64,000 nt of DNA from Triparma columacea (Eukaryota > Sar > Bolidophyceae > Parmales > Triparmaceae), in the NCBI GenBank assembly GCA_030267965.1, contig BRYA01000307.1, positions 20,882 through 84,881 of the forward strand. Reading direction: 5' to 3'. Of the stretch, positions 20,861-55,638 are shown one piece after another. The translations under genes and the position numbers were made by a program. Each line of letters starts with the position of its first letter. Position 1 is the stretch's first letter. Below the pieces are notes generated by a model. It ran no database searches, was not told where the DNA came from, and saw only the letters and a program-made list of their open reading frames with translations.

Positions 20861-20971
20861 GGGGGAGAGACAGACTTCGGATTTGACAGATTTCTTTTCT
20901 CTTCCCTATTTCTTCACTTTCACCATGCAGCCCCCCATTGCGACCCATACACCCCTGTTCAAGGGGTGGTA

Positions 20972-37423: not shown

Positions 37424-38308
37424 ATGACAAGATGGACGCCTTTTTTGGCCATTTTCTGTTTTAATCACTTTCCACTTGCAGTAAATTCCTTCGCAACTCC
37501 GAGAAGTGTCACTACTAACCAATTCAAAAGACCAACTCACTTTCCTTCTTCACCACTTTCTCCACCTTTGGAAACATCTCTCGCCTTATATAGTTCCATC
37601 GCTCCTCAAAGAGATGAGCGAAAGGCGGATACTCAAACTGAGGATAGCCAAAAACAAGTCCAGTTGTCCACAAACACACACACAGAAGCAGTTCCGAAGA
37701 ACCTTTCTTCAGCCGTCTCCTTCTTCCTATACAAGAGCGGTAACCCAGCTCCATTGATAGTCCTAGTAACATTGACTTCCCTCGTCACATACTACGCACG
37801 ATACCTCCCTCTCCTAAGCCCCCTCTCCACCTCTGTAACATTCCTCTCTGTTGGTGCCTTCTGGATCGTCCAGGAGTACTTTCTTCATCGCTTTGTGTTA
37901 CACTCTTCACTAGACTGGGCTGGTAAGGACATCCACCAAGGGCATCACAACAAGCCCTATTACCACAACTCTATAGACCCACCGTTAATGATATTAACTT
38001 GGATGGCAACTGCAGGCGTGCTCCTAAAGCTCCTACTCCCTAACGATCCCTCACTATGGATCGTATCCTTAGTATTTTATTCCACCTTCGGGCTCTGGTA
38101 CGAGTTCCTACACTTCCTCTCCCACACCCGCGTTCCCTTCACCCCCGGTCGTGGTGTTGGTGGTTATTTCCACAAGGTAAAATCGAACCATATTAGACAC
38201 CACCGTGTTGACAGCGATAGGTGGTTCACTTTCACTGCACCTGGGAGCGTTGACGAATGGTGGGGTAGTGGGGGGGATGTTAGGGACAACCGACGGGAAG
38301 CGAAGTGA
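37424..38308 (+). CDS. Membrane di-iron hydroxylase (fatty-acid hydroxylase/sterol desaturase superfamily), plastid-targeted
   Basis: A single-exon gene of 294 residues. The N-terminus MTRWTPFLAIFCFNHFPLAVNS is a signal peptide followed by FATPRSVTTNQFKRP, a close match to the ASAFAP-type plastid signal of stramenopiles. After a Ser/Thr linker come four membrane segments and the His clusters of the superfamily: HRFVLH, HQGHH, HFLSH and HIRHH, which ligate two irons. It would hydroxylate a lipid-like substrate; fatty acids/sphingolipids and carotenoids are both possible given the His spacing and plastid location. Family is firm, substrate open. Confidence 0.9.
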   Translation: MTRWTPFLAIFCFNHFPLAVNSFATPRSVTTNQFKRPTHFPSSPLSPPLETSLALYSSIAPQRDERKADTQTEDSQKQVQLSTNTHTEAVPKNLSSAVSFFLYKSGNPAPLIVLVTLTSLVTYYARYLPLLSPLSTSVTFLSVGAFWIVQEYFLHRFVLHSSLDWAGKDIHQGHHNKPYYHNSIDPPLMILTWMATAGVLLKLLLPNDPSLWIVSLVFYSTFGLWYEFLHFLSHTRVPFTPGRGVGGYFHKVKSNHIRHHRVDSDRWFTFTAPGSVDEWWGSGGDVRDNRREAK

Positions 38309-38409: not shown

Positions 38410-39725
38410 CTACCCCCCCTCTTCCCTAACTCTAAATCCCATAACCTTCCTCTCCATATTTCCAATTTCTTCCACCCTCCTCTCCCACTCTTCCCTCCTT
38501 TCCTCTCCCCCAATCCCTTTAACCATAGTTTCATGTCCCCCCCCCCCCAGTCCTAATTTCTCCATAATCCCTCCCCATACCTCTCCCTCAACAAATTCAA
38601 ATCCTTTCCCTCTATACATCCTCCCTCCTTTTTCATTCCCTTTCTCCACATGTAATACCATACCGTTTAATCCCATCATCCCACCAACAACACCTAAACC
38701 ATCCATGACCAACCCACCGATACCTTTGTTCCTATACTTATTTAATACACATACCTCCGTAACATACCCCCACCCCCCACCCACATCCATAACCTCCGTA
38801 CCCTTAAGTTCGTCTGTACTTATTTCGCCACTACCTACGATTTCACCCTCCTCTGTACAGGCTACGACAATTTGTGAACCTGAGGATACTCTGCGTGTGA
38901 TAATTTCCTGGGACCTTGTAATGAATAGTTCTTTAACTTCCTTCGGTACTTTTTTGAATACGGATAGGCGGAGTTTGGATATATCATGGTAGTCCGAAGG
39001 TGTTGATAGTCGTAGTGTTATTATTGAGGATGATGAGGGTAAGGGGTAGGGTGGGAGGAGAGATACGTGAGCGTAGGATTGGCAGGTGGAGGGTGAAGGA
39101 AGGGGAGAAGGTTTAGGGGGGGGGTGGACGGCGTCTGGTGGGTGGGAGGGTTGGAGGAGGAGTAGTGATGTGTGTGAGTGTGTGTGTGGGGGGGGGGGGC
39201 ACGGTTTCTAAATCCCCCCCACCTCTCCTCTCCACCCCCTCCCTTTCCTCTGCTCTCACCTATACCCTTAGCTCCCCCTCCTCCCGTCCTCTCATGCCCT
39301 TTATCATCGTCAGTGTTAACCCCACCCTCCTCTTGACAGGTCTTTCGTATCTCCTTCATACTATCCCCTATTAGTTTCCCTCTGATCAAACCGTCTGCTC
39401 CTAAATTACCCTCCCCCGCTATGCCCCGTCTCACCAAGCCTGACCTGCCAATGGAACCGGAGCTGAGCTTGTTTTGGAGACCGGCGGATTTACGACGATC
39501 GTCACCTTTGCGCAAACGACCGGCGCCGTTGAACTTTTGAGGTGGGGACTTTTTTGAGGTTAGGGATGTTGAGGATGATGTTGAGGATGATATATGGATA
39601 AAGAATGGAGAAGGAGAGTTAGGGAAGCTTTTGAACGATATGGTTGTGCGAGTGACGGAAAGAAGGACGATGATTAGGATATAGAGACGTGGGACAGAGA
39701 GATGGAAGAGAGGAAGGGAGGACAT
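38410..39725 (-). CDS. GNAT-family N-acetyltransferase, plastid-targeted
   Basis: Exons 39725-39260 and 39134-38410 (396 residues); the phase-1 junction across the 125-base intron closes exactly. The signal peptide MSSLPLFHLSVPRLYILIIVLL...TTIS is followed by FKSFPNSPSPFF, again a Phe-based plastid signal, then a poorly conserved basic linker. The second exon holds the acetyltransferase: IVVACTEEGEIVGSGEIS (central strands), YVTEVCVLNKYRNKGIGGLVMDGL with the acetyl-CoA pyrophosphate-binding R-N-K-G-I-G loop, then VLHVEKGNEKGGRMYRGKGFEFV. It should transfer an acetyl group to a protein N-terminus, lysine or small amine in the plastid; plant plastids have several such enzymes. The substrate is unknown. 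Confidence 0.8.
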
Positions 39726-40290: not shown

Positions 40291-43200
40291 ATGACCTTCC
40301 CTGGTTATTTTGTCCTTCTGCTGCTGATCTTCTCCAACTCGTTGCATATTGGGACCGCACTCCCTGGAGCCGCAACGCCCGGGGTCTTATTGCAAGGACA
40401 CGGAAGGTCTAACCTACCAAGAGTTTCTCCTGGAGCAGGGGTCGATCTCATCAAGGACAGGAACTTTGACGAGGCGACAATGGTGCCCACGGCACCCATG
40501 GGCAAGGAGCTTGTGGTTAGGAAGAGTATCGAGGAAGAGTTCATGGACGCTATGGAGTCGAAAAGCAAGGAGATCGCTGTTTGGGGAGAACACGAGAGGA
40601 GATTGATTACTTGGCAACGAGCGCTCCTTTATACCGTGGCTGCCGCGGCAGTACGTAAGTATGGAATATTCGTACCATATACAAGGGACGATCTCAGACA
40701 ACTAACACTTTCCCCTCCTATTTTGTGTTACAGTTGCTGTCGGGTATCTGGCTTTTACTTATGGAGCAGCTGCCATGGCCACAAGTTATTCTAGCAGCTG
40801 GGCCGGGTACGGGGCGGCAGCGGAAGCGTATTCTTTTGGAGCAGGAGTTACAACCACAGTTGGTTCTGTTACGACAACAACAACACAGGTCTCAACCATA
40901 ACTTGGGTTTCCTCTTCTCTGGGGTTTGAAACTGCTGTGTGGGGTACAGCAGTATTAACTGAGACTGCTGTTGCTGGCACTTGGGCGGGTGCAATTGCAG
41001 CTGCTGCCCCAACTGCACTTGGGGGTCTCCTTACTATACTTACAGGATACAAGGCTGCTGAGCACCTTTTCGTGATTCCAGCTGACCGATGTGATCCAGA
41101 AGTTTTCTGTGTCGGAAGAGAGGCTGGTGGTAGGTGTACATCTTGTTCTGAAGGCGCATTCTTCAACGTAGATGATGGCACATGCTGCTCGTGCCCACCG
41201 GGGCATTACTTGAGTTCTCCAAACAAAGAGGAGGGGCATGTTCTAGATGTTTGCACAATGTAAGTAGGGGGCTAACAACATATTGCAAGCTCATTGTGTC
41301 CCTGTGTCCCTGTTCCGATGTTTAGTCTTTTCGTGCCATTCAATACTAACCCTGTGGCTATTCGGAAACCTGCTCTCGCCACAGCTGCGAGGAAGACAAG
41401 TTTCAAAGTGAGAGGGGGAGAAATCATTGCGCACATTGTCCGTCTGGAAAGAATTCTCAGCCCGGAGCGATCACTTGCGTAGCAGGAGCTTGTGAAATAA
41501 GTCAAGCTGCGTGTCGAGATGGATTTGACGACGGTTGGATTTGGGATGCTTGCGATCATTGTCCCAAAGGGAGTCGATTGAGTGGTACAGGAGATGGATG
41601 TTGTGCTTGCGAGCCCGGGAAATTTCAAAGCCAAAACGGATTCACAGGCAATGGATGTGATAAATGTCCCGTAAGTATCCATCGCAACAAATGAGCTAAA
41701 TACCCTTACTCAACTAACACGTTTTACTGATCATGCGCTTATCTCAGCCTGGAACCTATTCTGACGATGCGCTCTCAGATGAATGTAAAACTTGCCAACC
41801 AGGTCGATGGAACATGCTGGAGGGCCATTATGAATGCTTTGAAGCACCTGCGGGTTATTATGCTTCTAGCAATGGCACAGACCCAAATCAACATCTCATA
41901 GCGAATGAATGTCCACGAGGAACTTTCCAAGATTTACCAGGTCAGACATCATGTAAACTGTGCGCAGCAGGAACGTACGGGACTTTCCAAATTTTGAGCA
42001 GAAATTCTTCAGAGACAGGTGAGACGAACCAAAGAGAATAGGCACAAGAAGCAGAAACTAACACGTGACTCAATTTTATATTCATAGCTTGTCTCGCTTG
42101 TCCTGCCGGGACATACTCGGTGCAACCAGGTGGACTGAACTGTACAATTTGTGATGCAGGAAAGTATACCAATGCTCCGGGCCTCACACAGTGCACGTCT
42201 TGTCCTGAAGGGAAATCCCTTTCTGATGGTAGTGATCCCGATCTCATTGCCCGTAACCACACTCTTCATGACAATGAGAATGACTGCGAGTCCTGCACTG
42301 CAGGTCGATTTGCCAATTCAGTTGGTTCGTCGCACTGTGCTGTTTGTTCCAAAGGTCGATTTTCTACCTCCGAAGAAGCTACTAACTGCACAGCGTGTGC
42401 TCCCGGCTCGTTTATCGATGACGACGGGACGCTCTCTCAATATCACGACGAAATCGCAGATTGTGAATTTTGCGCTTCTGGGAAGTATTCTAATGTTAAA
42501 GGTGCATCTGGACCCTGCACCGATTGTCCAACAGGGCGTTTCCAAAACGATGAAGGTGTTATATCTATTGACAAACACGATGATCTCAACGACTGTACTA
42601 TTTGCTCCGCTGGTCAGTACGCAAACAGGTAAGACTGGATTAAAAGCGACGAACTAAGGACCCAAACGTTGACAAGAAAACCATGCGCGCTTGTCTGTCG
42701 GAGAACCATGTCTCCTTTGCAACTACATAATAATCCTAACACGTCCACACCTTCTCACTTGCAGTACGGGAAGCACCAGTTGTCTGAGTTGCGCTAAGGG
42801 ACGCTACCTCGCAGACGATGCAACGAATGATCAATTGCACGTATTTTCTATCCAATGCCTTGTGTGTGCGCCTGGTAAGTTTAGTTCTAACGCAGGAACA
42901 AAAACTTGTCAGGTTTGTGATAAAGGCAAGTATACCTCTCAACCAGCTACGTCGAAGTGTACAAGTTGCGCAGCGGGTAAATTTCTTGAGCACACTAGTG
43001 ATCCAGGCGGTCATGATTCGGATAGTGACTGCGTTGATTGCGCACCTCATTCCTACGCCGACACCGCTGGGAGTAGTAGTTGTTTGCCCTGCACAGGAGG
43101 AACCACTACGACCGGTCACGGTTCAATCTCGTGCGGTGCGTGTCCAAAAGGTGAGGCGACAGTTCGAGCTGGTGAAGTTACTATATCATATCTAAAAAAT

Positions 43201-46200
43201 TCTCGTCTCGTCCGTTTCAGGGTATAACTGCACAGGAGACACCATGCTTCCTTGTAAAGAGGGAACTTATTCTTCTGGAGGCGGTAACTGTACTCCGTGC
43301 CCTGAAGGGTATAAGTGCATAGGAGGGGCGGATAAGATCGCATGTGCAAAGGGCAAGTATGCGGATGAACCTGGGCTTCAAGAATGTAAAGAGTGTGATG
43401 GAGGTTCCTTCCAAGACGGTGAGGGTGAAACATCCTGCAAGTCCTGTGAAGCCGGTCATTACTGTCCCATAGGTTCTTCAAAGCAGATTCCATGCGGGAC
43501 GGCGCTTGTTTTCTGCCCAAAAGGAGTGAGTCAACCCGTTAAGGTGTCATTAGGGTACTATACCTCTAATGAAGTTAACATCGGTGATAGTGAGCGAAGA
43601 GTCTCAGAAATTGAATGCGAGAAGGGGTTCGGCTGCAGTGGAGGAGAAAGACTTAGTTGTCATCAAGGAGAAACCTTCCAAGCTGCAAGAAGATCTACGG
43701 CTTGTGAAGCGTGCCGAAATTGCCTACCAGGTGAAAGAGTTTCTCGGAGTTGTAGCAAAGAAGTGGACACCAAGTGCGAAAAGTGTCCTGCAGGCCAATT
43801 CTCGATTGACGGGAAGGGGGACTGTGAAGTCTGTACCGAAGGAAAGTTTTCATCGGCCGGGGATGCATTCTGTTCTCCTGCGACCCCAGGGAAAAAGCCA
43901 AAGCATGACAAATCTGGTATCGAGAACTGCCCCATGAACACGTACTCGCTTGGTGCGAAAAATGACTGCACACAGTGCACGAATAAGACATTTTCTCTGC
44001 CGGGCTCGTATGGCTGCTCGCAATGCTCACCCGGGAAATATTTTTCAGAGGAAACCCTTAGTATCCTGCCATTACTGAGCAATGAAATCAAAATTACTGA
44101 CGCGTGTATTCCCTGTCCAGCAGGACGGTATGCAGTTGAGGGAGGCGAGTCTGTGGAAGGTTGCAGTGACTGCCCTGATTCCAAGTACTCACGAACAGGA
44201 GCCACAGCCTGCCTTTCGCCTCCCTCTGGAAACGAAGTGGATGAGGAGAAATCGAACTTTGTGAAATGTCAAGCAGGGCGATACTCGGAGACGGGGGGGG
44301 ATTGCCTCCCCTGCGAAGGCCAAGGTGAATATTCTCCTATGGGTTCATCGACGTGTTTGGTATCGCCTCCTGGATTCGTTCCAAACGGGAATCGCAGCGG
44401 TCTCGTCATTTGTCAACCAGACACCTTTAGCCCTGGAGGTTCGGATACGTGCAAATCTTGCGAAGAACTGGGACAAGGGCTCCACAGCCCTCATGGGGCT
44501 TCGACCTGTAGGTCGTGCGAGCCCGGGCAAGAATTCGATCAAAAGACGGCCTTTAAACCGTGTTTTCGGCTTGTAACAAACACTACCGACGCCCGTCATA
44601 TTGACAATCGTAAGTTGGTCCTCACGCAAGCGATAACCGGAGAGGTGCATGTTTTCGAGTTTCAGCCTATCCGCAAGCATAGGAATGTGTCCATGACGTA
44701 CGAGGTTTGCCTGCACTCATCCCAAGACTATGATGCAGAGATACTTGGAACAACCTGGGATTTTGGAGCCTCGTGGAGTCTCTCACCACTTGGCGTGAAC
44801 ACCAAATTGAGCGGGATTTTCTCAGTCCATAATCAGACCGAATCAAAGAACGGGAACGCAGCAAGGTTCAGCATCGAAACTTTGAACCAATGTGATGAGT
44901 GCCCCGCGTCCACTTTCAATTCGAACGGACGCGGAAAATGCAGTGCATGCGTCAAACCTGGGACTTACTCTCATGAGGGAGCAAGCTTCTGTCAAACTGT
45001 TCCGCTCGGTCACGCAGCTTCAACTGACCGAACAGGTTTTGAAAAATGTCCTAAAAATATGTTCTCTCTTGGAGGGACGGATATGTGTACGACTTGCCCA
45101 GATGATTCTCATTCTCATCCAGGCTCATCATCTTGCGACTTTTGCATGGCGGGTCAGTACTATGAGGAGGCCTCAAACAATTGTTTAGAGTGTGAAGCAG
45201 GGAAGTTCGCAGAAAAGGGGGCCCTTAGTGTCGAAGGATGCATGGCGTGCGAGAAGGGGACATTCTCAAAGGCAGGGAGCGGGTTTTGCAGCGCGTGTCC
45301 GCAGCATCAAGAGGCGCTTTCTGGGAGTAGTGATTGCTTCTGCAGTCCAACCTTTGTCCCCGATCCAGACAATGACGGGCAGTGCACATGCCCTCCTGGT
45401 GAGATGCTCATCGGAACCCTCTGCGTTGGTTGCGAGAAGGCCAAGTACAAGTCAGGCTTCGGTATCTTCTCTTGTGACTTGTGCGACATGTTCATCAAGG
45501 ACAGCATCACCATGGCGACTAACGCGACATCATCAAGCGAGTGCGTGTGTCCGAAAGGGATGTTCCTCAGCCAGGATAGGAAGAGGTGCATGAGGGCTGC
45601 ATCGGGGGTAGAGTCGGAGGTCTCAGGCATGACATTGCAGAAGCTCAGGCTGAAAAAGGGTAGCTGGCGGACGACAGAAAACTCTACTGACGTTCGAAGC
45701 TGTCCTGTGAAGGATGCCTGCCTGGGAGGCTCAGAGATTACTAGCTATTGCGCTCCAGGCCACACTGGACCTTACTGCAACCTGTGCTTCGATGGTTTCT
45801 CTAAGGACGTATTTGGGATGTGTGGCGCGTGCTCAGCGAGCGAAGGGGACATACTTGGAACCTTCGGAGCATTGTTCTTGGTCCTCCTTGTTGGACTCAT
45901 TGGCTGGCTCGCATGGAAGAGAATGGGGAAGACGAAAAAGTCGAGGGAAAAAAGGAGGAAGTTCCTGACGGGCCTGAAAATTCTGTTCGTTACGTACCAG
46001 ATCATTGCTGCCCTCCCCAGCATCATTCCTCACATCCAGCTTCCAGACGTTTTCAAGTCTTTCCTCAAGATCTTGCAGTTCCTCAACTTCAATCTATTTA
46101 CAATCGTGCCTATGGGGTGCATGGCTTCTTTCGACTACTACAACATGATGATTGCCCTCACGGCATCGGTCATCTTTGTCTGTCTGACAACGACGATAAT

Positions 46201-47524
46201 TGCGCACACTGTTGGTGGAAATAAGCGGCAACGTCTCACAACTATCGCTCTGGCAACCACATACTTGACCCTTCCAACGATATCAACTGCCACGTTCGGC
46301 ATGTTCCCTTGCGACGATATGGACACAGGTGCCGAGTACCTTCGGACGGACTACTCGATATCGTGCAAGGGGGAGTATCGAACCCTTGCTCTCGGATATT
46401 CCGTTGCGATTATAATGCTTTTCCCAGTGGGCGTGCCGACGCTTTACACGATTCTTCTGTTCAAGAACCGCAAGAAGATCAAACAGTCCGTGGAAGTGCG
46501 CAGTAAGGACGACAACCTCATGTCGAAAGCCTTCCTCTTTCAAGACTACAAGCCCAAATATTGGTGGTTTGAGATCCTCGAGACGTCGAGACGACTAGCT
46601 CTCACTGGTTTGTTAAGCGTTGTGGACCCTGGCGGTGACAGTCAGTTTGCGCTTGGCATTCTCATGAGCATGATGGGTACAGTTTCTTATGCTCTCTTCA
46701 AACCTTACCTATCAACTAGGGACAACGCTTTGAGCATCCTCTCGAATGCGCAAGTCTTCTGTGTGTTCCTCACGGCGTTTGTGATGAAGCGCATAAAGGA
46801 GGAAGAAGAGAGGGCCGAGAAAGAGGGCGAGGAGGTGGAGGTGGCCAACGCCGAAGACATGGAAATTATGGGGGTGTTGTTGATCGTGATGAACCTTGTG
46901 AATGTGTTTGTCTTCTTGGGGTGGGGGTACTTGAAGAGCAAACACGAAGGCGGCGGAGAGGGCAGTGCGGGGGATAGAGCGAGCGCCTTTAAGGCTCTTG
47001 CAAGCACCATTAAGAGCATGGGAACGAGGAAAGACACCTTCGACACCGAAATGGACGACAGTAAGGACAGTGGCAGCTTTGTTAACGAAAACCCGATGTC
47101 AAAGAACGGCAACGTTGGGACCATCAAGGGTGAGGACGACGATGATGCGTCTGGAAGGGACAGCGCGTCTGGAAGGAACAGCTCAAATCCGATGTGGAGG
47201 TTCGGAAGAAAGGCTTCTGGGGGTGAGGGGGGGGGGGTTGGGAAAAGACGGGGAGGGGGCAAGAAAGGGAAGGCGCGGCGGGATAGCCTCAAGGAAATGA
47301 TGGAGGCGGCCCAGAACATCAAGGTGAACGAGGACGGCCTGCTTGAGGTAGTTGAAAGAGGCGGTACAGTGGAGGGCGCAGCGTCTGAACCTGAGGCAAT
47401 GGTCGGTCCCCCGCCTCCGGAGCACAAACAGAAGGAGGGTTGGGACGCTTACTGGAACCCTGAGGCTAAGAGGTATTACTATCATCACTCTGAGTCGGGA
47501 GAAACACGGTGGGATGCGGAATGA
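40291..47524 (+). CDS. Giant GCC2/GCC3-repeat (ephrin-receptor-like) multi-pass membrane protein with C-terminal WW domain
   Basis: Exons 40291-40654, 40734-41259, 41385-41670, 41748-42018, 42088-42628, 42765-43150 and 43221-47524 (2225 residues); all six junctions keep frame (phases 1, 2, 0, 1, 2, 1). Order: signal peptide (MTFPGYFVLLLLIFSNSLHIGTA); a hydrophobic Ala/Thr/Ser-rich region (about 115-230); more than twenty Cys-rich units of the C..C..G.(Y/F)....G...C type; a Cys-free insert (about 1240-1345) inside the repeat array; more Cys units; ten hydrophobic segments (about 1665-2030) including KYWWFEILETSRRLALTGLLSVV; a basic/acidic cytosolic tail; and a WW domain (WDAYWNPEAKRYYYHHSESG) at the very end. 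A surface receptor or channel is inferred. The membrane module distantly recalls fungal TRP-like (Flc) proteins, but I cannot establish that. Confidence 0.85.
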
Positions 47525-47540
47525 ATGAGCAACAGTTGCT

Positions 47541-47582
47541 CGAGTGTACATATAATCTGCACCGAGTGTACATAAAATCTGC
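47541..47582. repeat. Direct repeat in the 3' flank of the large receptor-like gene
   Basis: Two nearly identical units, cgagtgtacatataatctgc and cgagtgtacataaaatctgc, follow each other just after the stop codon at 47524. They could be RNA-binding sites in the 3' untranslated region. Confidence 0.8.
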
Positions 47583-47760
47583 GCCTTTATTGTTTGGGGA
47601 AAAGAAATGAAAAGGGTAATGAAAGCAAAGAAGGGAAAAGAGAAGAAGAAAAAGAAGAAGGCCCAAACATTTTATCCTATTTTTTGGCCTGTTACTACGA
47701 GATAGCTATTGTATTATCACTGTAACACGATAATATCACCATTATATCCCTATTTGATCT

Positions 47761-49093
47761 ATGTTATCTAGATTCAACGTATTGAATGGTCAAATTTTGC
47801 TCCTAGTCATTCTTCTGCTCCTCGATATGTCCAAATTAAGCTCCAAATTTAGCTCCAAATTAGCTCAATCATTCTCAACATCAACACACACATTATCACC
47901 ATTATCACCGTTCATACAAACACACAACACATTCAACACATTCAACACATACCCAACATTCAACCCAACATTCAACACCTCCCTCAAATGCTCCCTTAAA
48001 CGCTCCCTCAAACGCCCTCTTACAACATCACGAGCCTCTAACGTACCTTCACCAACCTACCTTAGATGTATATCAACAAACCTACCAACAGATCTACCAA
48101 CAAACCCACCAACAAACCCATCAACAAACCTTAGCCCAGAATCCCCCTTCTCTCTACCCTCTGGTGTCAAGGAGGTTCCATTATCAGGTTGGTCAAATCC
48201 CCCCGGCTTCCAGGTCGTTTGCATAACAAGAGAGAAGGAACAGTTTAGTGAGAAGGAGGAGGAGGGAGGAGATGAATACTATAAGAGGTACCTACATGAA
48301 CTGGAGATGGAATACGGGAAGAAGGATATACCAAATGACAGAGCTAGGTAAGAAGAAAGAGAGAGATAGAGAGATTCGAAAGAGAGAGAAATATCACGTC
48401 TCAGACTAACCCCCCCAAACCCTTCACAAACTTCCACCTCTTCAACCATCCTGGTTTCTTACCTTGTTCAACAAACATAAAACCAGGGATCAGCATTACA
48501 TGGGTCGTTTAGCTGTAAAAGTATCCCTCATCCGTACCCTCTCCCCCCAACATTTTACATGGTCAAATCTCCCCCCACTTATAAAGGACTCAACAACGGG
48601 AGCCCCGAAACTACTAACACCTAAAGATGAACATTTACTATGCAGCGTTACACACAAGGGTGAACTAGCATGCGGAGCTGTTGCTTCATGTGAGGATGGT
48701 ATTGCTGGTGTTGGTGTAGACGTTGAGACAATATCCGGAGGTACCTCTAAATTGGGTAGTAGGATAATGACTGAGAGGGAGAGGGAGAGGGGGGGGAGGG
48801 TTAAAATGATATGGTGCGTTAAGGAGGCGGCTTATAAATGTATAAGCGAGGCTGTGGGGAGGAAGGTTGGGTGGAAGGAGGTTGAGGTTTTATGGGATGA
48901 TGAAGGGGGGGGGTACGATGGGGGGGACAAGGAAGAGGAGAAGGAGGAAGGGGGGAGGGTGGGGTTTGTTTGGGGGGAGGACGTTAAGGACAAACTAGAA
49001 GGATTTGAAACGGAGGGATGGTGGGGGAAAACTGGGGAGGGGGAGTGCTACTGGGCGGTGGTCGTGAGGAGGAAGGTTGAGACGACGGGTTAA
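47761..49093 (+). CDS. 4'-phosphopantetheinyl transferase (Sfp/AcpS superfamily)
   Basis: Exons 47761-48347 and 48487-49093 (397 residues); the phase-2 junction reads NDRARDQHYMGRLAVK. A hydrophobic N-terminal stretch (residues 10-22) and a long Thr/Asn/Pro-rich linker look like a targeting presequence. The catalytic half carries the superfamily signatures: SVTHKGELACGAV, GVGVDVETI with the Mg-binding Asp and Glu, and MIWCVKEAAYKCISEA with the W..KEA.K motif. It transfers the phosphopantetheine arm of CoA to carrier proteins (fatty acid, polyketide or lysine synthesis). The sense strand changes from A/C-rich in exon 1 to G-rich at the end. The gene sits between two large membrane-protein genes without obvious functional link. 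Confidence 0.88.
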
Positions 49094-49566
49094 TAAAGGG
49101 AAATCGATGTATTGTTTTCTTAGAAACGCATAGGAAGTCGTTGTCGTTGTCGGCGTCGGAGTCATCATCATCATCACATCATCATCATCATCATCATCAT
49201 CGTCGTCGTCATCATCGTCGTCGTATTCTATTCGATTTTTGTCCAATTCCAAATGAATAACTAACTCCAAATTCCAATATGGACCCGGGTATGATGTAAG
49301 AGAATTGAGAATTTGTTCTTTATGAATAGACATCTGTTCCCTTCCCTCTCCCCCCCCCTTCCCCTTCCCCCCCTCTATCTTGGCTCTCTCGATGTCCCCC
49401 CCCCCCTCTCTCCCCCCTCTCTCCCCACTCCCTTCCCCGTCTCTATCCCCTCTCCCCCCCCCTTCCCCCCCGCCCCCCCCGGAACTTCGCCTCCCTTATG
49501 AAGGGGACGTCAGCGCCAGCTTCCTTAGCGTCTCAAACACCTCGAACCACCAGTACCTGTTAAGAA
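49094..49566. repeat. Simple-sequence spacer: (ATC/GTC)n microsatellite and C-rich tract
   Basis: No gene is visible in this convergent spacer. A trinucleotide tract of atc and gtc units spans about 49140-49227. A pyrimidine tract with C runs of five to ten spans about 49338-49492. The C-rich part contains only repetitive frames of Pro, Ser and Leu. Confidence 0.85.
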
Positions 49567-52500
49567 CTATTTCTTGATGGCGTGGATCGGCCCCTCCTCT
49601 TCCTTGGCTTCAACCTTTGCCGCTGGGGCCTTTTGCTGCGATTTAGCTGGCGGCGGTCCAGGAATGGGGTCTTCGTACTGCTGTTTCCTGACCACCCTTG
49701 TGTTAACCGGCATATTCTTCAACTGCCTCGCATAATTTCTTCTCAGCATTTCATCCTCAAACCTCTTATACAGACTCTTCCCCTTACTTTTCCCCGCCTT
49801 CCTCTCCTTCTGCCCCTCTGCTTCCGCTTCCATATGCATGGGATTATCACTCAAGAACTTGCTACCGCTCCTCTCTCCCAATTCGATCCCCTCCCCTGCC
49901 CCTTCGTTACTTCCTGACCTCGGCTTGAGCGAACTTTTAAAAGCTCTTGCAGCCATTCCTCCGTTGCTAGTGCTAAGGTTGTTGAATGAGTACCACGCCC
50001 ATGCAATGAACAGTACAATTATGAGCACCGTTGCGGCGATTAAAACTGCGCCAAGCCCCATCGCCTCGTAGTCATCCTCCACAAGCTTCTGCGACTTCAT
50101 CAGGAACTCCGAGGTGAACGTCAGGATAAGCAGGATTCCCGATAGTATCGCAATGATGTTGTCCCTTAGCTCGCCGAACGGGAAAACGCAAGCCAAGTAT
50201 ATCGTGGAGAGAGTTGCCATCATCAAGCCACTGCTGATCTGCGTGAAGGAACCTGGATCAATGGTAGAAAGCAAACCAGTCATTGCGAGCCTCCTCACAG
50301 TCTCGAACACCTCCCACCACCAGTACTCCTTCTTGTAGGGCTCCCACAAGAACAATATCCCTCTGAGCTTCTCGTCGTTTATCCTGTCTTCCCCCATTAA
50401 CCTGTCCTTCATCCGGAAGAGGAGGACCCAGTACATTAACGGGACCCCGACTGGGAATATCCCAACCATCAAGTAGCCGTACGCCTGCCAAGCTCCCCTA
50501 CCCCCCGCTCCGCAGTCGATGCTCAAGTCGCTTCTGAGGCGAGAGTAGGTACCGTCATCAAAATCATCGCAAGGAAACATACCAAAGACAGTCGTTGTTA
50601 TGGTGGGAAGGGTGAGGTACGTGATGGCGATAGCAGCGGTGTACAGGTTGGGCCTCTTCTTAAAGAACGCCAGGAGGGAAAGCGTCGCGATCACCATGAC
50701 GACAGACATGGTCAGAGCCACGGACTTGACGTAGAAGTTGAAGCCTCCCCCTGTGAAGCAGCCCATGGGGACAAGCGTGAACATATTGAAGTTGAGGAAC
50801 TGTGATGCCGCCACCACCTCTTTGAAGTTCTCAGGGAGAGACACTTGCGGGATGACGTTGGGGAGGGATGCTATAATCTGGCCGGAGGCGAACAAAATCT
50901 TCACCCCATTCTTGCACCTCTTCCAAACCTCCTTCCCCCTTCGTCCTCCACCCAGCTTCTTTTTAAGGAGCACGTACCCGCCGAGAAGTATCAAAGCAAA
51001 CAGCACGAAAGCGAGGACGGTGAAAGCAAGATCGTTCTTGCTCTCGCTGCACTGCTTGCAAAGCATGAAAGGGTCTAGGTTGTAGTTGTCCTTGCAGAGG
51101 GCGCAGTAAGGGCCGGTGTGTCCATCGCGGCACATGGTCTCAGTGTCGTTGCCGCCAGCGCAGGCTTCTGGGGTGATGCAGGGGCGAACGTCGTCCGACT
51201 TTTCGCTGGTTCTCCAAAAACCTTCCTCAAGGGTCAAGGAAGCGAGCGTCATGCCAGAGATATCCTCCCTCATTCCCTCCTCAATTGGAACGCAGGAGCC
51301 CTCCCCGTCGTCGTAAGTACGGGAGGGACAGATACAGGAAGATGAGGAGGTTGAACCAGGCTTCTCAGTGATTGACCCCTTGAGAGTGTCCTCGCAACGA
51401 GAGCAGCTGGTGACGCCGATCGATGACTTCCATTTCCCCTTCTCGCAGGGTTCGCAGGAGGTACCCATGAGGGTCTCCCCGGCCTTGCAGGTACATGAGT
51501 CACCATCACCTATTTTGGAGAAGGATGGCATGCAGTCGCAAGATTGCGTATCCTCATTTGGGGTCTCGTGCTGGGGGCAGTGAAGGCAGGAGGAAGCACC
51601 AATCCTGGAAAAGGTTCCTTTTGGGCAGGTTGTGCACGTGTCGTTGGCTCCAATAGAAAAGGTATTCTTGGGACAGACTGTTAGGGAAGTGCGGTCGGAG
51701 GAGGGTTTATAGCCTGCCGGTGCTGTGGAGCATGCTGCCTGTCCTTTCTCTGCCGAGTACTCTCCCTCTCCTGAGCAGGCAGAGCAAGAAGTAGCAGCAA
51801 ATTCTGCATACTCTCCCTTCTCGCACTCAACACAAGCATCGCTAACTGTGATGGTTCCTGGTGGGCAAGGAGCACATCCTGTGGCAGCAACCTTGTTGTC
51901 CGTTCCAGCAGGGCATAGGTCACACTCATTCTTCCCCCCAATGCTGTACTTTCCGATCTCGCACTCCTTGCAGCTGTGAGAAGCGAGGTCGGCGAAGAAG
52001 CCCGGGCCACAGTATGTGCATGTGTCGTTTCCAGCCTTTGAGACGTAACCCTTTGTGTGCTCGCAAGTAGCGCAGATTGTCGAGCCGGGGTTGCTGAACT
52101 TGCCGTCTCCGCAGGAATCGCAGCGGGCACCGGTGGCGTCGACCACGAGCTTCTCTCCACCAGCGCACTTGTCGCAGCCAAAGGAACCTTCAACTAGATT
52201 GAAGGTTCCAGTGTCGCAAGTCTTGCAGGTCTGCGGTGAGTGGAGGGGGGGTGGTGAGCTTTAAGCTATGAGCACGTGAGTCTAGCAGTCCTTACTCTCC
52301 CTTCATTCTCACCTCGCTTTTCGGCTCATTAGCGTATTCACCGATGGGACACTTCGCACAAGCAGAAGACATGGTAGAAGAGGCGAACCATCCTGGGGGG
52401 CAGTCAGTGCAATCAGTAGCCATGGAGGGGGAGTAGGTTCCCTTGGCGCAGCTTTCGCACTCTGAAAGACCTGGGGAAGGACCGTATTTTCCAGGTTCGC

Positions 52501-53655
52501 AGTTCACGCAGGCGTATTGGGAGAAGGAACCGGTAGTGGGGAGGTACTTGCCTTCGGAGCAGTCAGTGCAGGTGACTGTGGAGGTGGACTCGGCGTAAGT
52601 TCCGGTAGGGCAGTTTGTGCAAGTGCCAGATCGGGCGGTGCTGTAGGTGCCTGCATATGATTGAGTTAGATTGTGTTGAAAGGAAGGGAATGGAGAGAAG
52701 CGGGGAGCTTACCTTGGGGGCAATCAGAACAAGTGCCAGAACCAGCAGATGAGAACTTTCCTGCAACACACTCTTCGCAGTCAGAGATTGATGTGCCAGA
52801 GGTTGGGTTGGAGGAGCCAGCGTCGCAGTGGTAGAAGACACAGTTGTAAGAGTAGTAGGGAGGGCTTGCCATACTGAATGTGTCCAAAGCGGACCCTTAG
52901 AAAGGAGAGAGGTAGGAATAGGAATTGGTGCAGCGGTAACGTAAAGTGAGTTGTGGGGTTAGGAATGGTTCTACAGCCTACACAATCCTCATTCTCGTCT
53001 TACCTTGGATTGGAGTGTTGGAGGAGTAGGGAGAAGGGCACGTATTGTGGATGGTGATGGTTCCACCCTCCCTGTAGATATCATCACCATTTCCTGAGTC
53101 TGCTGTGTTTCCAATGAAGCTTGTTCCGTAGATATTGACAGTAGTTTCACTACCCTCAACATAAATAGCTCCACCTCCATAATCACTATCTGTAGCTCTA
53201 TTGTTGGAGAAGCCTAAGAGCTCCAAGTCCACTATGGCACCTAACCCAATGAAAACCCCTCCACCCCAAGTAGCATATCCCTTGTCAAAGGTGAGAGCTC
53301 GGAGAATGAGTGTAGAACTCCCAGTTCCTTCCACCCACATCCCTCTTCTTTCATCCTCTCCATCCAACACACAGCTTGCGTTGTCCTCCACACACTTGAC
53401 CTCTCCATTCAAGTATCCTGTGTACAGCATGAGAGTACTACTTGCACAAGTCCCCTCTGAGCCTTTATACGACCCAACAGCTAGAATCGTAGAGTCACCA
53501 TTCGCCATGATGGAGTTGCCAGTGTTGGTAGATGCACGATTACTGACCGTGTTGAATAGCCCGTTCATATCGACCACATTCACCTCACCCAATGACCTCC
53601 CTCCGACTAGGACTAAGCAGGTCCAAAAGATTAGGCAAATATGAGACAATTTCAT
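49567..53655 (-). CDS. Beta-helix (POMP-like) + GCC2/GCC3-repeat multi-pass membrane protein, paralogue of the 40-47 kb protein
   Basis: Exons 53655-53004, 52895-52713, 52650-52313 and 52230-49567 (1278 residues), phases 1, 1 and 0. I choose the ATG at 53655 because it starts a good signal peptide (MKLSHICLIFWTCLVLVGG); an in-frame ATG at 53748 would add 31 residues before it. Exon 1 has a right-handed beta-helix look with GGGAIYVEGS and SFIGNTADSG, as in polymorphic-outer-membrane-protein repeats. About a dozen Cys-rich GCC2/GCC3 units follow, then CRDGHTGPYCALC and the ten-segment membrane module (about 790-1150) with EYWWWEVFETVRRLAMTGLL, clearly homologous to the other protein. The cytosolic tail is short and has no WW domain. 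Receptor or channel role is inferred. Confidence 0.85.
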
Positions 53656-54375: not shown

Positions 54376-55638
54376 CTACCTTTTATGCATGCCCTTATCC
54401 TTGGCTTCCCTAACCTTCCCCAGTAGCTCATCCCCTCCAACTTCCTCCCCCTCCCTTAAAATCCTACCCCAACCCCCCCCCTCTCCCCCTCCCCCACCAG
54501 CAGCAGCTATAACAAATGGGTTCCCCATCCTCTCATATTCCACCGTGCTAGGTACCGTAGGTTTCCCCTCCTCCCTTATCTTTCTAGCTTCCTCCAAAGC
54601 ACCCTCAATAAACGAGCTATCGGGTAAAGCCCAAAAGGCGAACTCCAGGTTGGATACGGTGTACTCATGACCGGGGTAAACTAGAGTTTGAGGGGGGAGG
54701 GAGGTTAAACGTAAGAGGGAGGTTGTCATCTCGGAAGGCGAGCCCTGGGGGATTATTATTAGGGGGGGTGGGGGTTAGGGAGGAGGGGGGGCTGAGAGGA
54801 ATTTGTAGCGCTGACTAAATCAAAGCCGGGGAAGTGACGGCCCCCCCTCCCCCCACCCCGGCGTTGCTATACTCCCTCAAGTCTCCTCTCACCTCGAATA
54901 GCTTCCCGCATCCACCCTTGAACATACAGTCCCCTGTAAAAACCACCTTTGGTTCAGCCGAATCTACCAAGTAGCACATGTGACCCTTAGTGTGAGCTGG
55001 TGTGTGGACGCACTTAACCACGTGACCACCGGGCAAATTTATAACGTCGGAATTGAAACAGGGGAGAGTTGTGGAAGGGTGGGAATCGAGGGAACCACAG
55101 ACTACGGTTATGGGATCGGAAGGCTAGGGGATTTTAGGGAGGGTGTAGGGGGTGAGGGAAATTGGAGGGGAGGGGGGAAGCAATAATGAAATGGACCCGA
55201 TAAGATGCTGTACTTGTCGGGCATCTAGCCTTGCCTCGACTTCGCTTACGCACATGCAGTCGCTTCCCTCACGCCTCTCGACTTCCTCACACTCTCCTGC
55301 TCCTTCCGCTCTTCCCTTTCTTACCTGTGTTGGGTTGAGAGTCTCCACAATCTTCAGGTTACCACCCGCGTGATCCCAGTGCTTGTGGGTGGTCAAGATG
55401 TGTGTGATTATAGGAGGCGTTGGTAGGGATTGTAGGTGAGCAAGGACTAAGGGAGGGTCTGCAGGATCTATGAGGAAGGCATAACCAGGGGCGTATGTAG
55501 CTGGGGCGGGGGAAATTGAAGTTTTTAGATGGTGGTGGTGAGTGAGTGAGCGAGCCAAACGACAGTCTTACCTAAATACGAGTAATTATCTTCGAGAATG
55601 GGGATAATATCCACTGATAAAGGGTAAAGTCCTGACAT
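54376..55638 (-). CDS. GLO2: Hydroxyacylglutathione hydrolase (glyoxalase II)
   Basis: Exons 55638-55572, 55500-55325, 55123-54893 and 54744-54376 (280 residues), phases 1, 0 and 0. The metallo-beta-lactamase fold is evident: start MSGLYPLSVDIIPILEDNYS, the dimetal motif HILTTHKHWDHAGG, VKCVHTPAHTKGHMCYLV with the next His, VVFTGDCMFKGGCGKLFEG with the bridging Asp, and LVYPGHEYT with the final His and the glutathione-binding region. It hydrolyses S-lactoylglutathione to lactate and glutathione in methylglyoxal detoxification. The C-terminus has a Gly-rich insertion not usual in the family. No targeting peptide, so probably cytosolic. Confidence 0.95.

Follow-up and report, generated by a model that had tools for sequence, protein, structure and literature searches.

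Two large genes on opposite strands of the Triparma columacea genome raise the question of what kind of surface protein joins a cysteine-rich GCC2/GCC3-repeat ectodomain to a multi-helix membrane module, and whether the ectodomain is exchanged while the membrane part is kept. Both genes, here termed A (+ strand) and B (− strand), lie within the window, the whole 64,000-nucleotide (nt) stretch of contig BRYA01000307.1 that was analysed (contig positions 20,882 to 84,881; coordinates below count from its first letter). The answer we propose, and hold to be about an even proposition, is that A and B belong to a large surface-receptor family in which a repertoire of variable recognition heads is mounted on a conserved, transient receptor potential (TRP)-like and perhaps Ca2+-permeable module. 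The unexpected result of the analysis was a hypervariable head of gene B with 150 matches in its own genome. Among the matches listed from the openly licensed literature, no description of this receptor family was found.

The C-terminal parts of A and B align at 35% identity over 567 residues (E 3e-102), and in an own-genome search with the module of A the two modules are 44% identical, the lower figure applying to the longer alignment; this similarity is far above chance, and the module is homologous in the two proteins. The anchor motif named in an initial annotation of this DNA was found in both genes, and the repeat profile PF07699 exceeds its cut-off (23.1 bits) in both (A, 30.5 bits; B, 62.2 bits; five stretches in each scanned last exon), so that the plan described there, of opposite-strand genes with GCC2/GCC3 ectodomains and a common C-terminal membrane module, holds. 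The hydrophobic N-termini of both products are putative signal peptides. The gene models below, unproven by RNA, follow the splice consensus; for A it served to choose among many possible intron combinations with an open frame, and for B, too, other open combinations exist.

40291–47524 (+): gene A, seven exons and six GT-AG introns giving one open frame, 2225 amino acids (aa)
40291–40654, 40734–41259, 41385–41670, 41748–42018, 42088–42628, 42765–43150, 43221–47524 (+): exons of gene A
40736–41257 (+): Ala/Thr-rich N-terminal region of gene A (used in an own-genome search)
44564–44890 (+): Cys-poor insert, containing one Cys, inside the GCC2/GCC3 stalk of gene A
45749–46936 (+): membrane module of gene A, PF06011-related (21.2 bits; cut-off 28.5), 396 aa
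46559–46615 (+): anchor motif of gene A, YWWFEILETSRRLALTGLL
47402–47521 (+): cytoplasmic tail end of gene A, a PPPP stretch followed by a WW-like domain
53748–49567 (−): gene B, four exons, 1309 aa; three introns, the third with three open alternatives
53748–53004, 52895–52713, 52650–52313, 52230–49567 (−): exons of gene B
53748–53005 (−): head of gene B, a hydrophobic signal segment and a probable beta-helix of polymorphic outer membrane protein (PMP) type, hypervariable
53538–53155 (−): whole span of the main hypervariable head residues of gene B
53538–53536, 53436–53434, 53337–53335, 53331–53329 (−): hypervariable residues 71, 105, 138 and 140
53271–53269, 53190–53188, 53181–53179, 53157–53155 (−): hypervariable residues 160, 187, 190 and 198
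52895–51580 (−): GCC2/GCC3 stalk of gene B, variable among paralogues
51579–51133 (−): juxtamembrane Cys-rich segment of gene B, mostly conserved along with the module
51132–49981 (−): membrane module of gene B, 384 aa
50325–50269 (−): anchor motif of gene B, YWWWEVFETVRRLAMTGLL
49671–49630 (−): proline-rich tail end of gene B, DPIPGPPPAKSQQK; some other copies have a WW-like domain in its place
49559–49509 (−): anchor-motif relic of another member, YWWFEVFETLRKLALT, directly after the stop codon of gene B

The initial annotation had started gene B at 53655; the Met there is internal, being residue 32 in the longer frame, and since it is missing from many paralogous heads, 53748 is the likelier start.

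A search of the T. columacea genome (37.85 Mb, 789 contigs) with the head of B gave 150 scored matches among 211 candidates, spread over 105 contigs at 59–100% identity (B included), and 149 of the 150 are free of internal stops. Some of the copies counted in this genome may be alleles, and heads are over-represented at contig starts. We take GGA[IV]/FxxN rungs about 30 residues apart to be the PMP-type beta-helix motif (PF02415 repeats), and the head of B is predicted to adopt this fold. B itself scores 18.9–19.0 bits against a PF02415 cut-off of 20.6; that 16 of 33 B-type heads match the profile at E 0.01 or better strengthens the assignment, and the beta-helix first proposed for this N-terminus is made more probable by its relatives, with the caveat that B alone stays below threshold.

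Selection on the heads was assessed in 37 head exons (32 fetched and five in hand, none dropped), for which the overall ratio of nonsynonymous to synonymous substitution rates (dN/dS) was 0.96. Briefly, columns with at least five residue types in a random half of the sequences were termed hypervariable, and their dN/dS was read from the other half. This split-half procedure yielded 2.39 at hypervariable columns (1.94–3.48, 40 splits) and 0.38 in the framework; ungapped columns gave 2.61 (1.76–3.17). As a control, module columns with at least three residue types gave 0.86 (0.47–1.20). A per-site count over 194 head sites returned 21 with an excess of replacements at p<0.05, seven of them passing a 10% Benjamini–Hochberg (BH) threshold, and 23 with p<0.05 in the opposite direction. 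Furthermore, head variability peaks at a lag of 28–30 residues (autocorrelation 0.37, reached in 11 of 5000 permutations), the interval at which variable residues would recur if they were stacked rung upon rung in a beta-helix.

The module is likewise widespread. Searching the genome with the module of B recovered 118 pieces, clustered into 78 loci (four very short), and a search with the module of A adds at least three places outside that list (C281, C330 and C553:3177–3569; C numbers are our contig labels). The closest named proteins come from Triparma species. Outside the T. columacea genome, mostly in brown algae, the module is found beneath PMP beta-helix heads (127 matches, one of them the query; among the 120 listed, PF02415 is annotated in 102 and PF06011 in nine). 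Related modules also lie under an ANF_receptor ectodomain in Aureococcus and laminin-G ectodomains in Triparma laevis f. longispina, with a weaker, partial match in the slime mould Heterostelium. The initial idea of a membrane part that is kept while its ectodomain is exchanged is thus borne out on a larger scale than was first seen, with about 78 loci in this genome and, in other ochrophytes, beta-helix (PMP), laminin-G, ANF-receptor or GCC2/GCC3 ectodomains over the same module. One apparent giant member was observed on contig C610 (locus L054 and its upstream sequence), where a frame open for 8697 aa carries numerous PF07699 repeats and, towards its end, a match to PF06011.

Heads and modules were then related to each other by position and by divergence. 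A B-type head lies within 12 kb upstream, on the same strand, of 34 of the 78 module loci; this count left out the three extra places found with module A, two of which, on C330 and C553, have heads upstream of them. In the 21 genes with head DNA and an assignable module, synonymous divergence (dS) between the head and that of B had a median of 0.159 on modules 85–95% identical to B's (eight genes) versus 0.188 on modules 29–38% identical (13 genes; p 0.56), and the lowest head dS, 0.086, was found on a 30% identical module (C77). Across 27 head–module pairs, a set obtained from the 34 linked loci by omitting B and six others whose modules are fragmentary or that have several heads (C18, C36, C115, C232, C358 and C755), head identity and module identity to B gave a Spearman coefficient of 0.24 (p 0.23). 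Heads that are equally similar whatever the identity of their modules indicate movement between genes, and the heads appear to have been exchanged or homogenised across genes whose modules split long ago.

On C115 (L093), an N-free open frame of at least 1583 aa, running off the fetched stretch, holds two B-type heads together with a stalk and a module that is divergent; directly upstream, a different frame encodes a third head, and this multi-head member also has EGF-like repeats. C106 was also considered as a single open frame and discarded, as the joined stretch contains N, and C115 was taken instead. Six contigs (C473, C656, C365, C70, C657 and C159) carry repeats at closely similar coordinates near their starts (the same coordinates in C473 and C656), a pattern suggestive of haplotypes, of recent segmental copies or of subtelomere-like ends.

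Within the clade of B, 12 own-genome paralogues were aligned to B, whose close relatives are 79–95% identical to it. Ten of the paralogues show mostly 90–99% DNA identity (L030 and L031 less) across a block that opens some 450 nt ahead of the module and extends roughly 900 nt inside it; over the next three 100-nt windows identity in the ten ranges from 61 to 99%, and upstream of the block it drops abruptly to unalignable sequence at a point that differs by copy. The head exon is conserved again (84–91% DNA identity in blastn pieces) in the four long-flank copies, C503, C1, C154 and C97, while C448 is cut by a contig end. The stalk linking head to module has a different length and sequence in C503, C1 and C154, and C97 is colinear with B save for an extra repeat unit and intron. 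Intron gain in C97 was considered and rejected, the extra stretch being a further GCC2 unit plus intron within the difference in repeat length. An ectodomain swap inside this clade is therefore only partly seen: the stalk changes length or gains a repeat unit and head residues diversify, but the head type stays and no whole replacement occurs in the four copies. Tails could be classified in 11 of the 13 copies as proline-rich or WW-type, and all four combinations of stalk-junction type and tail type are present among these 11, which points to recombination. L020 and L028 have tandem copies of the proline-rich tail motif QQQYEDPIPGPPP(P/A)K, four and two respectively. Past the stop codon of gene B, the 51-nt relic YWWFEVFETLRKLALT is 90% identical over 51 nt to L048 and is possibly a recombination scar.

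The module itself appears to be distantly related to fungal TRP proteins of the Flc/Pkd2 type (PF06011) without being a member of that family. PF06011 exceeds its cut-off in 14 of 34 listed own-genome matches (in one only with neighbours in frame), in the Triparma strigata protein P0016 (44.7 bits) and in P0004 (33.3 bits), with P0002 just short (28.2 bits), and 13 of the 45 aligned members match it with E no higher than 0.001. A structure predicted for the module of B (406 aa, from the 45-sequence alignment; mean predicted local distance difference test score 87.3, predicted template-modelling score 0.86) was compared by Foldseek with a viral structure library, in which the best match was a Megaviridae protein annotated as a transient receptor potential ion channel (E 3e-5; template-modelling scores 0.50/0.49, root-mean-square deviation 8.3, 389 aligned columns, target 416 aa), a near full-length match to a predicted structure. 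Among giant-virus (Megaviridae) proteins, the module fold was seen in A0A5J6VHI1 and A0A5J6VI06 (E 3e-5 and 3.4e-4) and more weakly in A0A5J6VLW6 (0.38). The initial statement that the family has no named function is not supported by these results, since relatives pass the PF06011 cut-off and the fold matches a TRP-annotated protein; together they touch the finding that the initial annotation had itself named as refuting its proposal of a new class, a match of the module to a characterised channel or transporter family. Structural comparison gave a mixed picture, with the viral match on one side and solved structures unmatched on the other.

Other membrane-protein domains were also looked for. 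The ML-like TRP_N domain (PF14558) had no match at E up to 1 in the last exons of A and B or the first exon of B, and neither Ion_trans nor PKD_channel (presumably PF00520 and PF08016) had a match at E up to 1 in A or B. The class C G-protein-coupled receptor domain 7tm_3 (which we take to be PF00003) was found neither in A or B nor among the 14 families matching the 45 aligned members; NCD3G or ANF_receptor domains occur in single relatives. The predicted structure contains ten helices of at least 14 residues, seven clearly and three weakly hydrophobic, and two nearly invariant Cys lie on the loop between helices 183–205 and 234–262. The topology is probably nine crossings plus one re-entrant or peripheral helix, which fits the two loop Cys, an extracellular N-terminus and a cytoplasmic tail; the ten segments first described thus correspond to ten modelled helices but likely to nine crossings.

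By analogy with fungal proteins, the module may conduct Ca2+, and the role of sensor or channel suggested for the family would follow the same analogy. Of these proteins, we assume Pkd2 of S. pombe to belong to PF06011. Reconstituted S. pombe Pkd2, named a polycystin there, passes Ca2+ under membrane stretch according to the available text of one report (PMC11277609), and Flc1 (PF06011) of C. neoformans acts in calcium homeostasis according to that of another (PMC9600462). The accessible portion of the Parmales genome paper (PMC10328945) describes enrichment in calcium-signalling domains.

Gene A shares this module but differs from B elsewhere. Its Ala/Thr-rich N-terminus has a single match in its own genome, which is itself, and no own-genome relative of its module exceeds 45% identity in the search with module A; because A lacks close paralogues and its N-terminus is unique, the repertoire evidence covers the family of B and not A. 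The insert in its stalk had been called Cys-free and in fact contains one Cys. Its tail carries a candidate WW domain: similar motifs end the tails of several paralogues, but PF00397 scores 25.1 bits against a cut-off of 26.9 (E 1.8e-5), and the Pfam WW profile matches one of the 45 aligned members at E 0.001.

A and B are old paralogues, convergent in orientation, and the following genes lie between and around them.

48410–49090 (+): 4'-phosphopantetheinyl transferase open reading frame (PF01648), unrelated, between A and B
37424–38305 (+): fatty-acid hydroxylase gene, an ordinary neighbour
38413–39207 (−): GNAT acetyltransferase gene, an ordinary neighbour
54379–55123 (−): hydroxyacylglutathione hydrolase gene, an ordinary neighbour

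A recent inverted duplication was rejected because of the 35–44% identity between the two modules, and is also contradicted by the 79–95% identical relatives of B on other contigs and by the unrelated gene separating the two. The 'inverted pair' of the initial annotation is accordingly apt for the convergent orientation but not for the history, given the transferase gene in between and the close relatives of B elsewhere.

In the receptor plan that we propose, each protein would comprise a signal segment, an N-terminal recognition head, a stalk of GCC2/GCC3 repeats that is long, flexible and rich in Cys, the PF06011-related module and, in the cytoplasm, a tail; several members have a WW-like domain or a proline-rich motif at the end of this tail. 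The head of B would act as a recognition domain, with one stacked face of its beta-helix under diversifying selection, and recombination would pass head exons among genes, giving a germline repertoire of specificities. Binding outside the cell would be relayed through the stalk to the module, which would then gate Ca2+ entry (most likely) or otherwise start a signal, while the tails might recruit partners or pair different receptors. More tentatively, and with our confidence leaning against it, the whole may be a germline recombining repertoire in which some 150 or more beta-solenoid heads are swapped onto a TRP-like module, a combinatorial receptor-channel for prey, partners, microbes or viruses whose outline is common to brown algae. 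We know of no other case of a beta-solenoid scaffold serving as a diversified recognition domain.

Several observations weigh against the receptor-repertoire reading. Gene A has the module and stalk common to the family without a B-type head. For 112 of the 150 heads, the 12 kb downstream contain no listed module, in a count that again left out the three extra places found with module A, so that part of these heads may be soluble, truncated at a contig end or broken; 65 of the 112 are minus-strand heads less than 8 kb from a contig start, a position in which the gene may be interrupted by the end of the contig. The selection tests are counting methods that ignore recombination and were applied to related sequences. 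With the first 19 heads alone no site passed BH 10%, and columns at least three positions from a gap gave a dN/dS of 2.96 from a median of only 3.5 columns (1.22–6.63, 32 of 40 splits usable); lowering the threshold to four residue types gave 2.00 (1.11–3.98). The stretch used for the spacing analysis (residues 96–235) was chosen after the variability pattern had been seen, and the single stacked face on which the variable residues probably lie is deduced from their spacing in the sequence. Neither A (21.2 bits) nor B (11.9 bits) reaches the PF06011 cut-off of 28.5, and in the structure search the membrane part matched no solved chain at E 0.001 or better (best VIA Z against solved structures, 6.7 and 6.5), so the term 'channel' rests on distant relatives.

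These points leave room for other explanations. The heads might be surface targets of viruses, bacteria or grazers, their diversity a means of escape, with the stalk and module serving as structural anchor or as an unrelated transporter. We consider this unlikely, while granting that an attacked surface protein equally predicts dN/dS above 1 and head exchange; signalling better fits the strong constraint on the module (overall dN/dS 0.19–0.20) and the WW-like or proline-rich motifs in several tails, and the related Aureococcus module carries a ligand-binding ANF_receptor domain. Rather improbable, in our judgement, is that the proteins form structural or adhesive surface fibres, mastigoneme-like or attaching silica plates, with the module as anchor and the variation due to relaxed constraint. 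Among solved chains the GCC2/GCC3 stalks best match the Chlamydomonas mastigoneme protein Mst1 (E 1.6e-11 and 9.8e-17), and the PKD2–mastigoneme complex is proposed to be structural in swimming in the available text of PMC10846610; yet relaxation can raise dN/dS no higher than 1, whereas a reproducible subset of columns reaches 2.4, and a plain anchor needs no constrained multi-helix module. Most doubtful is a flavin or lipid transporter whose ectodomain is a nutrient-capturing scaffold of a phago-mixotroph, an idea in keeping with the first description of Flc proteins as flavin carriers (available text of PMC9600462) and with the origin of diatoms from phago-mixotrophs, Parmales being their sister group (title of PMC10328945), but a nutrient carrier predicts neither hypervariable, regularly spaced residues nor some 150 head copies.

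The proposed receptor family can be set beside five known systems. It resembles fungal Flc/Pkd2 proteins in the membrane profile, above cut-off in same-genome relatives and T. strigata P0016, and in the viral TRP fold match; it differs in that most tested Flc1 homologues, though not all, have an ML-like or ML domain (available text of PMC9600462), unmatched in A and B, whereas the beta-helix or GCC2/GCC3 ectodomain of the A/B family is not part of the Flc description. The brown-algal 'polymorphic outer membrane protein' genes (Ectocarpus and others) have the same module under PF02415 heads, but PF07699 is annotated in none of the 120 listed and head similarity to B is weak, in one protein. Should the receptor reading be true, it would give the module a likely role under many of these unexplained genes. 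Closer to home, T. strigata TrST_g9108 (P0003), named a WW domain-containing protein, has a homologous head (35% over 209 aa), stalk and module, but is much less similar, with a module of about 40% identity; the accessible main text of the Parmales genome paper (PMC10328945) contains neither 'ephrin' nor 'TRP'. The Chlamydomonas PKD2–mastigoneme system couples an ephrin-receptor-like (GCC2/GCC3-type) Mst1 filament to a TRP-type channel (available text of PMC10846610), but with two proteins and a true polycystin, whereas A and B each unite the parts in a single chain whose module is of PF06011 type.

Most known examples of diversified recognition repertoires come from animals and land plants. 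The pattern in the family of B looks like such a repertoire in a single-celled organism, and, if it is one, recognition of prey, mates or pathogens by unicellular algae would become directly testable in a picoplanktonic relative of diatoms. The ROCO proteins of brown algae, leucine-rich repeat (LRR)-ROC-COR GTPases, are thought to be intracellular. A recognition repertoire has been proposed for the brown-algal ROCO genes, candidate immune receptors for which the available text of PMC11378527 describes a repeat recognition domain, exon shuffling and diversifying selection, features comparable to those of the family of B; they differ in building a repertoire from LRR-ROC-COR GTPases, whereas the A/B family would do so with beta-helix receptors at the cell surface.

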